From: Demequina sp. NBRC 110054
GTDB taxonomy: Bacteria; Actinomycetota; Actinomycetes; Actinomycetales; Demequinaceae
Length of the DNA stretch: 64,000 nucleotides
NCBI RefSeq assembly: GCF_002090115.1
Contig: NZ_BBRK01000004.1
Location: 806,001-870,000, forward strand
Direction of reading: 5' to 3'
The notes beneath the pieces were generated by a model. That model saw nothing but the letters and a program-made list of their open reading frames with translations. It was not told the DNA's origin and made no database searches. The translations under genes were made by a program, and so were the position numbers. Of this stretch, positions 16,897 to 59,627 are shown piece after piece. How positions within the stretch are numbered: position 1 is the first letter of the stretch; each line of letters opens with the position of its first letter.

Positions 16897-17506
16897 GTGC
16901 ACTCCCCTTACTCCGCGCCGCTACAGCGAGGCGACCTGACTACCTCACGGGCTGACGCGTTGCGCGCCGCCATCTACGTTCTCATCGGGGCCGGACACTC
17001 GCGCGATGTTTCACGTGAAACCTGGCGAGCTCACTACCCCGGAGAAGTCAGACTACCCGCGCGGCGTGAGGGTTTCATCCTTAGATATGGCCGACTTCTG
17101 TGGACAACCGGGCGGCCGAAGCGCGTTCCCCGCACAAAGAACTGTGGACAGTCGGTGTGGAGAACTTTCTTGACTCGAGTGAACGGCATGCGCCCACCGC
17201 ACCGGCGACCCGTGGCATGCACGGACACGGGCACACTGCCGCACCTGTCGAGACAACGGGATGGCACGTGAAACGGTCACTCGTGCGGCGCACGAGACGA
17301 CACGAGAAGGGGACTCCTGACGATCACCGGTCCCAACCAGTCCGGTCCCAACCAGCCCCGTGCAAAGCCAGCCCCTACCCAGCCCGGCCTCCGTCATCCG
17401 TACGACCGCCACCCGCTCGAGCGGCCGCGTTCGCGTCGACGCCGAGAACGTCGCATGCCCCGCGGATCCCAGACGCCGCGCACCCACGGTGGGCGTGGCG
17501 AGATCC
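16897..17506. other. 610-bp intergenic region between parA and rsmG
   Basis: No convincing gene is seen here; open frames on both strands have random-looking composition and no ribosome site. It holds a parS site (17008-17021), a degenerate parS-like ATGGCACGTGAAAC (17261-17274), and three DnaA-box-like sequences: TGTGGACAA (17099-17107), TGTGGACAG (17143-17151) and TGTGGAGAA (17157-17165). The promoter of parAB should lie near its left end. Confidence 0.6.
17008..17021. other. parS: parS site upstream of parA
   Basis: Exact GTTTCACGTGAAAC, flanked as TGTTTCACGTGAAACC, about 110 bases upstream of the parA start. Confidence 0.95.
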
Positions 17507-20840: not shown

Positions 20841-22250
20841 GTGAGCGAGCAGACGAGCGCCGCGGACATCGAGGATGTGTGGCGCAAGGCGCTGGATCAC
20901 CTGGTCCACCACCACGGCATCGGGACGCAGCAGCGTTCCTTCCTCCGACTCGTCAAGCCGCTCGCCGTCGTCGAGGACAACGTCTTCCTCGCCGTGGCCG
21001 AGGACTTCACCAAGACCTTCATCGAGTCGACGATGCGCGGCGACGTGACGAGCTCGCTGTCGCAGGTGCTCGGTCGCGAGGTCCGCATCGCCGTCACGGT
21101 CGATGCCTCGGTGACCCCGTCGGAGATCGACGTGCCGGAGCCGCAGGCCGACGTGGCTCCCGAGCCCCGTCCCGTGATGCCGTCCGCACCGACGCCCACG
21201 GTGGCCGAGACAGTGCCCGACCCGCACCTCAACCCTCGGTACACCTTCGACACGTTCGTCATCGGCTCGTCCAACCGATTCGCCCACGCCGCCGCCCTCG
21301 CCGTCGCCGAGTCGCCAGGCAAGACGTACAACCCGCTGTTCATCTACGGCGGTTCTGGGCTGGGAAAGACGCACCTCCTCCACGCGATCGGTCACTACAC
21401 ACGGCAGATCAAGCCCCAGACCCGCGTGCGGTACGTGAACTCCGAGGAGTTCACCAACGACTTCATCAACTCGATCCGCGACGACCGTTCGCTCACCTTC
21501 AAGCGCACGTACCGCGAGGTCGACGTGCTGCTCATCGACGACATCCAGTTCCTGCAGGGCAAGGAGCAGACGCTCGAGGAGTTCTTCCACACGTTCAACG
21601 CGCTGCACAACGCAGGCAAGCACGTCGTGATCACCTCCGATGTCAGCCCTCGCCACCTCGACGGGATCGAGGAGCGCATGAGGACCCGCTTCGAGTGGGG
21701 GCTCATGACGGACGTGCAGCCGCCGGACCTCGAGACCCGCATCGCGATCCTTCGCAAGAAGGCCCAGGCGGACGACGTCGCCGCGCCGGGTGACGTGCTC
21801 GAGTACATCGCCTCCAACATCACGAGCAACATCCGCGAGCTCGAGGGCGCGCTCATCCGCGTCACCGCGTTCGCCGCGCTCAACAAGCAGAACGTGGATC
21901 TGTCGCTCGCGCAGGTGGTCCTCAAGGACCTCATCAGCGACAACGACTCCGAGATCACGGCCTCCTCGATCATCGGCACGACCGCCGACTACTTCGGCAT
22001 CACGATGGACGAGCTCACGGGAACCTCACGCTCCCGGGTCTTCGTGACCGCGCGCCAGATCGCGATGTACCTGTGCCGCGAGCTCACCGACCTGTCCCTG
22101 CCGAAGATCGGCGAGCACTTCGGCGGCAAGGACCACACCACGGTCATGTACTCGGTCAAGAAGGTCGAGGACCAGATCGCGCAGCGCCGGCAGATGTACA
22201 ACCAGGTCAACGAGATCCACGCGCGCGTCAAGCAGCAGACGCGCGACTGA
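20841..22250 (+). CDS. dnaA: Chromosomal replication initiator DnaA
   Basis: This 469-residue protein has all four DnaA domains. They are an N-terminal DnaB-interaction domain (IEDVWRKALDHL), a Pro-rich linker, the AAA+ core with Walker A GGSGLGKTHLLHAIG and Walker B LLIDDIQFL, and the DNA-binding signature KIGEHFGGKDHTTVMYSVKK at the C-terminus. It melts oriC and starts replication. The GTG start follows AAAAGGGGGTC. The domain II linker is short for an actinobacterium (Streptomyces DnaA exceeds 600 residues). A convergent acetyltransferase gene ends two bases after its stop. Confidence 0.98.
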   Translation: MSEQTSAADIEDVWRKALDHLVHHHGIGTQQRSFLRLVKPLAVVEDNVFLAVAEDFTKTFIESTMRGDVTSSLSQVLGREVRIAVTVDASVTPSEIDVPEPQADVAPEPRPVMPSAPTPTVAETVPDPHLNPRYTFDTFVIGSSNRFAHAAALAVAESPGKTYNPLFIYGGSGLGKTHLLHAIGHYTRQIKPQTRVRYVNSEEFTNDFINSIRDDRSLTFKRTYREVDVLLIDDIQFLQGKEQTLEEFFHTFNALHNAGKHVVITSDVSPRHLDGIEERMRTRFEWGLMTDVQPPDLETRIAILRKKAQADDVAAPGDVLEYIASNITSNIRELEGALIRVTAFAALNKQNVDLSLAQVVLKDLISDNDSEITASSIIGTTADYFGITMDELTGTSRSRVFVTARQIAMYLCRELTDLSLPKIGEHFGGKDHTTVMYSVKKVEDQIAQRRQMYNQVNEIHARVKQQTRD

Positions 22251-22252
22251 CC

Positions 22253-22849
22253 TCAGCTCATCGCCGCCTCACGCTGACGTTCTGTCAGCGCTCGATCCGC
22301 ATACACGAGCCTCACCGCGTCCCGATCCGGGTTGCCCGCATCGCCTCCCCTGGCGACGAGCGTCAGCCCGACCGCGCGCGCGACCCCCACGGATGCGTGA
22401 TTGTGCTCGAGCATCACGGCCACGCTCGGGAGCGTCGGACGCACCTCGCTTGCCCGGGCGATCGCGGCTGCTGCGGCCTCGACCGCGAAACCCTGTCCCT
22501 GCGCGCTCGGCGACAACCGATGTCCCAGGTTCCAGAGCGCATCGTCCCTGACCGAGCAGCCGACGTAGCCCAGCATCTCAGCGGAGCCGCGCCTGCGGAC
22601 CACGCTCACTCCGAGGCCGTACGTGTCCCACCCCAGCAGCCATGCGCACACGAGCTGCTCGGTCTGAGCGCGATCCCCGTGACGTCCCGACGGCAGGTGG
22701 GTCCACCCCGACGGGTCGCACATCAGGGCGTGAACCTGGTCGACGTCGGTCCACGAGGGTCGCGACAGGGTCAGTCGCTCGGTTCGCACCACGTTCTCGT
22801 TCAGCACCTCGGCAAGCATGGCGACGAAGGTAGCGAAGGGCTCTGACAT
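22253..22849 (-). CDS. GNAT-family N-acetyltransferase
   Basis: This protein of about 198 residues (from ATG 22847-22849, MSEPFATFVAMLAEV) has RTERLTLSRPSWTDVDQVHAL, LGYVGCSVRD, and LGHRLSPSAQGQGFAVEAAAAAIARA with the acetyl-CoA loop QGQG. These match the RimJ/RimL-like GNAT group that acetylates protein or small-molecule amines. The substrate is unknown. ATG 22819 is an alternative start. It lies on the minus strand inside the dnaA-dnaN interval, where most actinobacteria have only oriC, so it looks like a local insertion. It carries one exact copy of the dispersed 12-mer (22538-22549). Confidence 0.85.
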   Translation of the reverse strand: MSEPFATFVAMLAEVLNENVVRTERLTLSRPSWTDVDQVHALMCDPSGWTHLPSGRHGDRAQTEQLVCAWLLGWDTYGLGVSVVRRRGSAEMLGYVGCSVRDDALWNLGHRLSPSAQGQGFAVEAAAAAIARASEVRPTLPSVAVMLEHNHASVGVARAVGLTLVARGGDAGNPDRDAVRLVYADRALTERQREAAMS

Positions 22850-22894
22850 CACAGGATCCGCTCGCCCAGTAGCACACATCAGTCCGGTCTGCAC

Positions 22895-23225
22895 ACCTGG
22901 GGAAAATCCTGTGAGTTCATGTGAATGACATGTACGAGCGTCTGGGGACGATCTGTGAACGACACGAAAGTCGCTGTGAGTCTGTGATTCGTCTCCACCG
23001 GCTCACACGAGTACTCCGCATCGACGTCCACGGATCGTCCACATCCGAGAACTTGTGATTACCAGCCAGAATCACAGGTTTCCCCAGAATCCACGTCCCC
23101 TATGACTACTTCCCCATCCTTCTTGTCATTCATCCCCACCCGACCTTCATGACGCTCCGCGCCGTGCCGCGCCGACTCCCCTCGACTCGGGCCTCATCTG
23201 GCGTAGTCTGTGCCGCAGACCGAAG
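22895..23225. other. oriC: Presumed replication origin oriC
   Basis: This 387-bp gene-free stretch before dnaN is the usual site of oriC in actinobacteria. It has many TGTGA or TCACA words, e.g. TGTGAATGA (22920-22928), TGTGAACGA (22954-22962) and TGTGATTCG (22983-22991), plus TCGTCCACA (23036-23044), one mismatch from the TTGTCCACA box. No perfect DnaA box is seen. It is less GC-rich than its surroundings around 22905-23130. The divergence of gene direction at dnaA supports an origin near here. Confidence 0.65.
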
Positions 23226-58315: not shown

Positions 58316-59134
58316 ATGACCGCGTCGGGTGGCGGGACCGCCATGGAACCCGTGTGCCCCCGCCACCCCGACCGCGTCTCCTACGTCTCCTGCCAACGCT
58401 GCGGGAGGCCCACCTGCCCCGAGTGCCAGACCCCGGCCCCGGTCGGCATCATCTGCGTGGACTGCGCGCGCGAGGCGCAGCGCCAGTCCCGCTCGGTCGT
58501 GAACCGCCTCGGCTTCACGAGCGCGTTCGGCAAGCCCTATGTCACGTTCACGATCATCGGGCTCAACATCGTGGCCTACCTGTACGGCACCCTGATCCTC
58601 GGGGGTGGACTGTCCGACCTCATCTACGGGGTCAACGGCGGTGACCCTTGGCCGGTTCGATGGGGTCTCTGGCCCGAGATCGACGGTCAGCTCGGCGGGT
58701 TGGGCGAGGAGTGGTACCGATGGATCACCTCGGGGTTCCTTCACTTCAGCCTTCTCCACATCGGCATGAACATGCTGGTGCTGTTCCAGTTCGGCACGCA
58801 GCTCGAACCGATCATGGGGCGCGCCCGATTCGCGGCGCTGTATGTCATCTCCCTGCTCGGCGGCTCGCTCGCCGTGGAGCTGCTCGCGAGCTCGGGTGTC
58901 CACGGCGGAGCCTCGGGGGCCATCTTCGGGCTGTTCGCCGCGTATGCCGTCGTCCTGTACAAGCTCAGGATGAACTACCAGTCGGTGGTCACCACGGGTG
59001 GCCTGTGGCTCGTGCTGGGCTTCATCGTCCCTGGTCTGTCATGGCAGGCGCACCTCGGCGGCGCGATCGCCGGCGCTTTGACGATGCTCGCGATGCTGCA
59101 CTGGGTGAAGAGCCCGCAGCGCGCCCGACGCTGA
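58316..59134 (+). CDS. Rhomboid family intramembrane serine protease
   Basis: The 272-residue protein has an N-terminal zinc-binding B-box-like segment (CPRHPDRVSYVSCQRCGRPTCPECQ, IICVDCARE) and a six-helix rhomboid domain. The catalytic serine is in GGASGAIFGLF, the histidine in WQAHLGG and the asparagine in HIGMNMLVLFQF. It cuts membrane proteins. ATG 58343 is an alternative start. It is eleven bases after ppiA. Confidence 0.94.
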   Translation: MTASGGGTAMEPVCPRHPDRVSYVSCQRCGRPTCPECQTPAPVGIICVDCAREAQRQSRSVVNRLGFTSAFGKPYVTFTIIGLNIVAYLYGTLILGGGLSDLIYGVNGGDPWPVRWGLWPEIDGQLGGLGEEWYRWITSGFLHFSLLHIGMNMLVLFQFGTQLEPIMGRARFAALYVISLLGGSLAVELLASSGVHGGASGAIFGLFAAYAVVLYKLRMNYQSVVTTGGLWLVLGFIVPGLSWQAHLGGAIAGALTMLAMLHWVKSPQRARR

Positions 59135-59190
59135 CTCCCTTCAGCCGCGTCGCGCTCCCCCCGCTCGTTACTCACACCGGTGTAATTCCC

Positions 59191-59282
59191 TGTGAATAAC
59201 ACGGGTGTAGTTATCCCAAAGTGTGGAGAGCAATGTGGATAACTACACCCGTGTCATTCACATTCCCCCAGCGTTATCCACA
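59191..59282. repeat. 26-bp inverted repeat with a cluster of DnaA boxes
   Basis: Arms 59191-59216 and 59237-59262 are inverted copies with one mismatch, around a 20-nt loop. Perfect DnaA boxes are TGTGGATAA (59234-59242) and TTATCCACA (59274-59282); one-mismatch boxes are TGTGAATAA (59191-59199) and TGTGGATAT (59314-59322). An ACAC-S-GGTGTA palindrome occurs three times (59174, 59199 and inverted at 59244). The region lies between the 3' ends of two convergent genes, so it is not a promoter. Confidence 0.85.
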
Positions 59283-59300
59283 GAACCGTAGGTGTGAGAA

Positions 59301-59340
59301 AGCCCCCGCACGCTGTGGATATGTCACGCGCACGGGGGCT
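59301..59340. terminator. Hairpin before the crgA 3' end
   Basis: AGCCCCCG (59301-59308) and CGGGGGCT (59333-59340) pair around a 24-nt loop that contains a DnaA-box-like sequence. Convergent genes flank it. Confidence 0.6.
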
Positions 59341-59381
59341 CGGGGCTGGGGAGAACCGGTGGTCTCCCGCGGAGGGGCTGG

Positions 59382-59627
59382 CTACTTCCAGCGCGTCAGC
59401 AGGCCCATCGCGACCGCGAAGAAGCTGAAGCCCACCAGCACGTTCCAGTTGTAGATCGGCACCGGGTACGCACCCTGGGTGATGTAGTGCACCGTGATCC
59501 ACGCGAGCCCGATGACCAGCAGCGTGATGATCGTCGGGATCAGCCACTTGGGGTTCTCGGACTGCGCCTTGCCCAGGTTGCGAGGGGCCTTGAAGGTCTC
59601 GCGGTCGTTCTTCTTGGCTCGTGCCAC
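59382..59627 (-). CDS. crgA: Cell division protein CrgA
   Basis: The 81-residue protein has the CrgA pattern ENPKWLIPTIITLLVIGLAWI and PIYNWNVLVGFSFFAVAMGLL, two membrane helices. CrgA recruits divisome and cell-wall proteins to the septum in actinobacteria. It is convergent with the rhomboid gene and divergent from the sortase gene. Confidence 0.96.
   Translation of the reverse strand: MARAKKNDRETFKAPRNLGKAQSENPKWLIPTIITLLVIGLAWITVHYITQGAYPVPIYNWNVLVGFSFFAVAMGLLTRWK

Follow-up and report, generated by a model that had tools for sequence, protein, structure and literature searches.

A conserved DnaA-box and palindrome module beside crgA is a likely DnaA-control site outside the origin in Demequina and other actinobacteria

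What is a dense cluster of DnaA boxes doing between two convergent genes, tens of kilobases from the replication origin? The question is raised by a 247-bp gap (59135-59381) between a rhomboid-family protease gene and the cell-division gene crgA in a 64-kb stretch of the Demequina sp. NBRC 110054 genome (hereafter the window). A first-pass annotation had proposed that the gap could be either an extra-origin DnaA site of the kind represented by datA and the DnaA-reactivating sequences (DARS) of Escherichia coli, or a second origin. We find that it holds a compact module of three DnaA boxes and a palindrome that recurs beside crgA in many actinobacteria, and we consider it likely that the site is an extra-origin DnaA-control locus that works like datA or DARS. 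This part of the proposal is favoured by the conservation of the element and by the DnaA binding reported at its mycobacterial counterpart, whereas the second-origin part is disfavoured by crgA gaps of 55-105 bp and by a DnaA-trio-like block kept beside dnaN.

All four DnaA boxes previously called in the gap, two perfect and two with one mismatch, were recovered at the same coordinates, as were the 26-bp inverted arms, which are complementary with one mismatch, and three ACAC-SS-GTGT palindromes, located at 59174, 59199 and 59245. The rhomboid (+) and crgA (-) genes, both backed by Pfam matches, meet at the gap with their 3' ends. The distance to dnaN is 36.1 kb (36 kb from dnaA in the first-pass annotation), and the 989-bp dnaA-dnaN gap, the presumed oriC for which no perfect box had been reported, lacks a box even when one mismatch is allowed. 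Four boxes (at most one mismatch) in the crgA gap compare with 0.038 expected, a count reached by none of 2000 dinucleotide shuffles, and two of the four perfect boxes in the 3.35-Mb assembly lie here. A middle DnaA box, a fixed spacing between the parts, and a GNAT gene between dnaA and dnaN are additions to the earlier description.

The core of the element is a 54-bp module made of boxes A, B and C and the palindrome P (Table 1). Its full plan, taken from loci of other orders, is GTTATCCACA (A), a spacer that contains box B, TG[GT]GGA on the opposite strand (C), and P abutting C. The 32 palindrome units that scored at least 17, out of 56 scored, give the consensus GAATT-ACAC-SS-GTGT-AGTT[ACT]TCC[AC]CAG, a unit in which the 20-bp palindrome P has an arm that continues into a DnaA box. 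Among the 66 members of alignment A2, which were selected by a profile score above 30, box A fits TCC[AC]CA in 61, box C fits TG[GT]GGA in 50 and P fits ACA-N4-TGT in 62, and the A-C distance is free of insertions in 63. Box B runs along A in 42 members, is reversed in 16, fits both ways in 5 and neither way in 3; in the window it shares the strand of A. At one locus, L242, the two genes are separated by 56 bp, hardly more than the element itself. In the Demequina alignment (A1), substitutions concentrate outside the boxes and the ACA-N4-TGT palindrome, and a mirror palindrome at 59245-59254 doubles the core, so that the Demequina version is nearly two-fold symmetric.

The rhomboid gene of the window retrieved 16 named loci, of which 8, the most similar ones, are from Demequina. 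CrgA was detected in 43 of 44 Demequina genomes, and in each of the 30 crgA loci read a rhomboid gene lies beside crgA with the core in the gap between them, over gap lengths of 105 to 712 bp. In the 35 of 43 crgA-bearing genomes that have both genes on one contig, crgA is 15.4-63.7 kb from dnaN (median 31.6). Profile R1, which was built from 24 Demequina sequences and whose matches in those genomes are therefore not independent, matched 43 of the 44 genomes; matches with E < 0.008 were all at the crgA locus, with a few weaker ones elsewhere. Within the order, named Micrococcales in this analysis, R1 matched 250 of 297 genomes and 77 of 94 genera at E<=0.1, against about 30 genomes by chance; the E-values of R1, and of the profile R2 used below, are rough, and this cut-off per genome corresponds to about one chance match per ten genomes.

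A sample chosen independently of the element, with one crgA locus for each of 65 genera among the CrgA matches listed, was then read for DnaA boxes; the other 29 of the 94 genera are Demequina itself and genera with weaker CrgA scores. A convergent adjacent rhomboid gene was identified by script in 51 of the 65 loci. At least one box (at most one mismatch) was present in 43 of these 51 gaps, which together hold 115 boxes against 2.0 in shuffles and 37 perfect boxes against 0.1. At the other 14 loci the crgA flank holds 6 boxes, in 3 loci. For these 14 non-adjacent genomes and four exceptions we turned to the rhomboid gene, which gave a locus in 16 of 18 cases (two had no rhomboid; L192, L193 and L203 do contain crgA). 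Boxes lie downstream of rhomboid in 12 of the 16; thus, in genomes whose crgA lies at another place, the element can still accompany rhomboid. We rejected an association with rhomboid alone, as the mycobacteria-like locus and the loci of other classes have the module at crgA with no rhomboid found.

The independent test of conservation was a leave-one-family-out scan, in which each family was scored with a 54-bp weight matrix built from the others, although the training places had originally been located using all families. As threshold we took the highest score, 16.7, reached in 485 shuffled 3-kb loci; 300 kb of control DNA from the Demequina sp. NBRC 110054 genome reached 3.9. Scores above threshold were obtained at 30/30 Demequina loci, the window's own genome included (family f1 left out), at 41/65 order crgA loci (one per genus), at 24/32 crgA loci of other orders and at 14/16 rhomboid loci (non-adjacent or exception genomes), representing 19 of 23 families. 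Of the 24 order genera below threshold at crgA, eight exceed it at their rhomboid locus, bringing the order to 49/65. Among loci that fail the profile, L116 shows the plan by eye with a 1-bp shift, and L127 and L169 show no plan by eye. The window site itself matches the crgA-linked group in position and layout: it lies at the crgA 3' end, tens of kilobases from oriC, with a module above the null threshold.

Beyond the order, profile R2, built from the 66 A2 sequences already in hand and thus not independent in those genomes, matched 278 of 396 genomes across the phylum at E<=0.1, with about 40 expected by chance. In the window, R2 matched the core at 59194-59240 (-) with E 2.5e-8, and all matches in that genome with E < 0.2 are at the crgA locus. 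We inspected 20 places in other classes, handpicked among the better R2 matches, which show where good matches lie rather than how frequent they are; in at least 10 of them the module is at the crgA 3' end. All ten flanking proteins tested against Pfam are CrgA, nine of them exceeding the curated cut-off and the tenth falling just short of it (24.5 against 24.8), and the 3' ends of these ten crgA genes are 2-134 bp from the element. Four further places, L252, L261, L262 and L265, resemble these in sequence. The search for the same repeat at crgA in relatives, proposed in the first-pass annotation, thus finds a module conserved well beyond the genus by both the profile tests and the phylum-wide R2 scan. 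At three loci (L258, L266 and L267, with element starts near 2555, 2561 and 2613) a copy of the motif lies not at crgA but upstream of a gene whose product, by an N-terminal motif, begins like DnaE (DNA polymerase III alpha).

DnaA would be the protein that occupies the boxes of the Demequina site. The DNA-binding C-terminal domain of the window's DnaA aligns with PDB chain 3pvp_A (DnaA) with E 2.6e-28, which we take to be the M. tuberculosis DnaA domain on a DnaA box. DnaA has been mapped by Hicks and colleagues in vitro on the M. tuberculosis genome and in vivo in M. smegmatis (PMC7738170), and the same five top DnaA regions, including oriC and Rv0010c-Rv0011c, appear in both maps. The Rv0010c-Rv0011c region was bound by DnaA in in vitro DNA affinity purification sequencing (IDAP-seq) and in electrophoretic mobility shift assays (EMSA), its M. 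smegmatis homologue was bound in chromatin immunoprecipitation sequencing (ChIP-seq), and a palindrome is placed 65 bp upstream of Rv0010c (PMC7738170). The gene rv0011c is crgA (PMC3989709). At our locus L241 (genome G581), the module lies just after crgA (PF06781, E 1.1e-32), between it and a bPH_6 gene, 35-88 bp upstream of the bPH_6 gene start, which fits the position of the published palindrome. This is the same junction as Rv0010c-Rv0011c, and G581, judged by its gene order, would be a mycobacterium. The window site shares with Rv0010c-Rv0011c a place beside crgA and a DnaA-box cluster with a palindrome, and would likewise rank among the strongest DnaA sites of its genome; it differs in its second neighbour, which in mycobacteria is a PH protein gene that is co-directional. 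The authors of the mycobacterial study reported no correspondence in other species, and the parts of their paper covered here do not describe the A-B-C-P plan (PMC7738170).

Table 1. Features of the rhomboid-crgA gap and of the dnaA region in the window
Feature	Coordinates	Strand	Basis
Core module, 54 bp (boxes A, B, C and palindrome P)	59190-59243	-	top profile match of the window, score 62.0
DnaA box A, perfect, TTATCCACA	59234-59242	-	sequence; one of the genome's 4 perfect boxes
Middle DnaA box B, TCTCCACA	59222-59229	-	sequence; alignment A2
DnaA box C, TTATCCCAA, faces box A	59211-59219	+	sequence; alignments A1, A2
Core palindrome P, ACACGGGTGT, flush to box C	59199-59208	.	32-unit consensus; motif also in own whiB promoter
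One-mismatch DnaA box, TTATTCACA, far side of P	59191-59199	-	motif scan
Second palindrome, ACACCCGTGT	59245-59254	.	partial R2 match 59231-59259 (+), E 7.4e-5
DnaA-like box, TCATTCACA, outer end of second arm	59254-59262	+	sequence
Inverted repeat (26 bp), left arm	59191-59216	+	repeat check
Inverted repeat (26 bp), right arm, one mismatch	59237-59262	-	repeat check
Third, outlying palindrome, ACACCGGTGT	59172-59189	.	weak R2 match, E 0.09
Accessory perfect DnaA box, TTATCCACA	59274-59282	+	motif scan
Accessory one-mismatch DnaA box, ATATCCACA	59314-59322	-	motif scan
Rhomboid-family protease gene, convergent neighbour	58316-59134	+	PF01694, E 2.4e-29
crgA, cell-division protein gene, convergent neighbour	59382-59627	-	PF06781, E 3.2e-19
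dnaA, encoding the presumed ligand of the site	20841-22250	+	PF00308/PF08299
Presumed oriC before dnaN, with weak DnaA boxes; DnaA-trio-like block, CCCTATGACTAC, 23098-23109	22895-23209	+	

The palindromes had earlier been taken to suggest another DNA-binding protein, and this idea gains support from the occurrence of the same palindrome in a whiB promoter. The strict palindrome, TACACNNGTGTA, is found in 18 of 44 Demequina genomes, at 0-3 copies per genome. Eighteen strict copies lie outside the crgA gap, of which 14 are one orthologous whiB-type promoter region (within L275-L292); the four others (G012b, G018, G033b and G037) have no WhiB nearby. In the promoter, the first base of P lies exactly 16 bases downstream of that of TTGAC and 47-81 bases ahead of the gene. 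The whiB-type gene of L288 (PF02467, E 1.8e-27) is flanked by a LytR-CpsA-Psr gene and a glycosyltransferase gene, neighbours from which we take it to be of the whiB2/whmD septation type. The window's own genome has the same promoter with P, one base changed, on contig C4 near 132.7 kb (L293, near 2000), and P is therefore present in the whiB promoter of 15 Demequina genomes, counting strict TACACNNGTGTA copies and this genome. The whiB promoter copies are without the DnaA-box module (best profile score 4.4); thus, the DnaA boxes are specific to the crgA locus. Because the palindrome is placed like an operator in the whiB promoter, P is probably bound by a transcription factor that has the whiB-type gene as a further target. 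In Streptomyces, a BldM dimer activates whiB via a palindrome, TCACcCgnncGgGTGA, in its promoter (PMC4125116). BldM group I sites are thus alike in being a palindrome in a whiB promoter, but their consensus, TCAC-N8-GTGA, has two bases more between the half sites than P. A scan of 59135-59381 found no match to TCAC-N8-GTGA, and P, as ACA-N4-TGT, does not qualify as a BldM operator. Given the different spacing and the lack of the motif in this gap, BldM serves as a lead only by analogy.

Could replication instead start at this site, alone or as one half of a bipartite origin? Its boxes are clustered near dnaA, and the dnaA-dnaN gap lacks a near-perfect box and contains a GNAT-type acetyltransferase gene (22253-22894, minus strand; PF13302, E 3e-18). 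This gene fills 642 of the 989 bp and, because it sits between dnaA and dnaN, squeezes the presumed oriC into about 320 bp; several other Demequina dnaA-dnaN gaps are also long, up to 1345 bp. Two one-mismatch boxes, TTGTCCACA and TTCTCCACA, lie on the other side of dnaA, at 17099-17107 and 17156-17164, on the same strand and 57 bp apart. AT content does not discriminate, the best 30-bp AT fraction being 0.60 at the site and 0.63 at dnaA-dnaN. Cumulative GC skew over 364 kb of the same genome around the window (16 pieces of C4:640001-1010000, with a 6-kb hole) has its minimum at 922 kb; the skew is near zero, very weak near the origin, and follows gene strand, as third-position skew also tends to do. 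Because the skew is weak and tracks gene strand, origin calls based on it are unreliable in this genome. Against an origin at crgA, a box-GC-trio-like block is kept 146-181 bp before dnaN in 29/29 dnaA-dnaN gaps; the 24-base probe for it, with 1-9 mismatches, was written from the same gaps and shows conservation rather than independent detection. It is like the basal unwinding system described elsewhere (PMC6669920, PMC8287927). Moreover, the whole crgA gap is 105 bp in L031 (best 30-bp AT 0.53), 55 bp in L130 and 56 bp in L242. Neither an unwinding region nor a DnaA-trio was seen beside the site's boxes when the gaps, some only 55-105 bp long, were read. The shortness of some gaps and the trio-like block retained between dnaA and dnaN make a second origin unlikely, and we give hardly any credence to an origin function, whole or half, at this site.

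Inverted repeats between convergent genes could mark a transcription terminator or an RNA hairpin whose arms pair, and pairs changed on both sides number 7 against 5.0 in shuffles (16 of 500 reach 7). There is, however, no T run; pairing over the 66 members is 82.0% against 81.5% with partners shuffled (106 of 500 reach it); the pair of columns 8-28 is broken in 33 of 66, as expected if the arms are read separately as boxes; and the neighbours are co-directional in the mycobacteria-like L241. We therefore regard this reading as improbable. An Rfam scan of the window returned two tRNAs and nothing else. That DnaA bound here regulates transcription of crgA or its neighbour might be expected from its role as a transcription factor elsewhere, from the position of the mycobacterial site upstream of Rv0010c, and from the related copies upstream of dnaE-like genes at three loci. 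Yet both genes end at the site in 30/30 Demequina loci and 51/65 order loci, the neighbour varies (rhomboid, PH protein, others) while the site persists, and expression of Rv0010c and Rv0011c was unaltered in dnaA mutants (PMC7738170), all of which make such regulation highly improbable. A last possibility is that the site mainly serves the protein that recognizes P both here and in the whiB promoter, with the DnaA boxes secondary or DnaA acting as a competitor. The near-constancy of ACA-N4-TGT, the three copies of P in the window, and its presence in the whiB promoter at 14 of the 18 other strict-copy places and in the window's own genome all speak for it; the DnaA boxes, however, are as constant by strict patterns (A in 61/66, C in 50/66), the whiB promoter copies carry no DnaA-box module (scores at most 4.4), and DnaA itself binds the mycobacterial counterpart (PMC7738170), so that this reading, too, is unlikely.

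We therefore return to an extra-origin DnaA-control locus as the likely function. Boxes A, B and C, with P abutting C, would hold DnaA in a compact assembly next to crgA, some 36 kb away from oriC. Across the genus, crgA gaps contain 104 boxes (at most one mismatch) in 11,053 bp (30 gaps, all but one with a box), whereas dnaA-dnaN gaps contain 38 in 20,316 bp (29 of the 30 loci, L069 having been dropped when its dnaA end was not found), and the window has 4 against 0. With oriC limited to weak boxes, the site should outcompete it for DnaA, and it would be doubled soon after replication starts; this would lower free or active DnaA, by titration or by datA-like inactivation. If the site were DARS-like, ADP-DnaA would instead be recycled there. 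We slightly favour the brake over reactivation. A septation-linked regulator on P may set the strength of the DnaA complex and in this way couple DnaA control to division, a role loosely comparable to that of IHF and Fis at datA and DARS2; such a protein, like the direction of control, is a prediction.

Several observations weigh against this reading. No above-threshold match was found in 16 of the 65 order genera at either crgA or the searched rhomboid loci, and family f37, a family of large genomes, fails the profile at 2/2 loci despite three exact TTRTCCACA boxes per gap. Family f37 may be the Streptomycetaceae. Strong boxes are also seen, without the A-B-C-P spacing or a clear palindrome, both in the f37 gaps L228 and L243 and in L041 (Kitasatospora) and L043 (Streptomyces), the rhomboid-crgA gaps of the last two having five strong DnaA boxes each; at these four loci the element looks as though it had been rebuilt. 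Finally, mutants of the mycobacterial site have longer cells and an unchanged initiation rate (PMC7738170). Simple titration therefore fits poorly.

Extra-origin DnaA-control sites are already known, as is DnaA binding at the mycobacterial member, and DnaA-box clusters have been recognized in Streptomyces. The S. coelicolor clusters H69, H24 and D78 are reportedly the subject of a study by Smulczyk-Krawczyszyn of 2006, in J Bacteriol 188:6184, with functional work on D78. Like the site described here, they are DnaA-box clusters outside, and near, oriC. In S. coelicolor crgA is SCO3854, close by number to SCO3857, and H69 may correspond to the rhomboid-crgA gap. Cosmid H69 carries SCO3857 (PMC3878966), and the S. 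coelicolor clusters have been cited as datA-like (PMC5742627). The Streptomyces gaps differ in that the exact module spacing and P were not found in them. Chromosomal DnaA-box clusters of Bacillus subtilis likewise lie outside the origin and restrain initiation (Okumura 2012, cited in PMC5742627). E. coli datA is also a DnaA-box cluster outside oriC that would draw DnaA from the origin, but it is larger, has an IHF site and needs DnaA-ATP hydrolysis. In the three-box cores of E. coli DARS1 and DARS2, box I runs opposite to boxes II and III (PMC5742627), and the module resembles them in opposing A and B to C in 42/66 members. It differs in that B is reversed in 16/66, and both this likeness and that to datA are ones of layout and position. 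To our knowledge, a P-type palindrome is not known from DARS. We found no description of the element across actinobacteria in a literature search that left subscription papers mostly outside; as far as this search shows, what is new is that the loci have the A-B-C-P plan in common, that P is connected with whiB, and that the element is so widely associated with crgA.

The element probably helps to control the timing of DNA copying in actinobacteria, whose limits on initiation are poorly known. The locus may be ancient, and may link replication to division. We offer, with somewhat more doubt than belief, a broader proposal: that an ancestral Actinomycetota DnaA-control locus, consisting of the box triad and P kept beside crgA, takes the place of datA and DARS; that the protein on P is an undiscovered whiB regulator coupling septation to initiation; and that Rv0010c-Rv0011c, H69 and the window site are homologous. 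Apart from this proposal, the mycobacterial DnaA site, of uncertain meaning until now, proves to belong to a widespread module of fixed layout, which opens the question to study in harmless hosts, and the natural variants of that module, with box B reversed, P doubled or the element displaced from crgA, constitute a test set for DnaA sites outside oriC. The sharing of P with the whiB promoter points to one regulator for both septation and DnaA.
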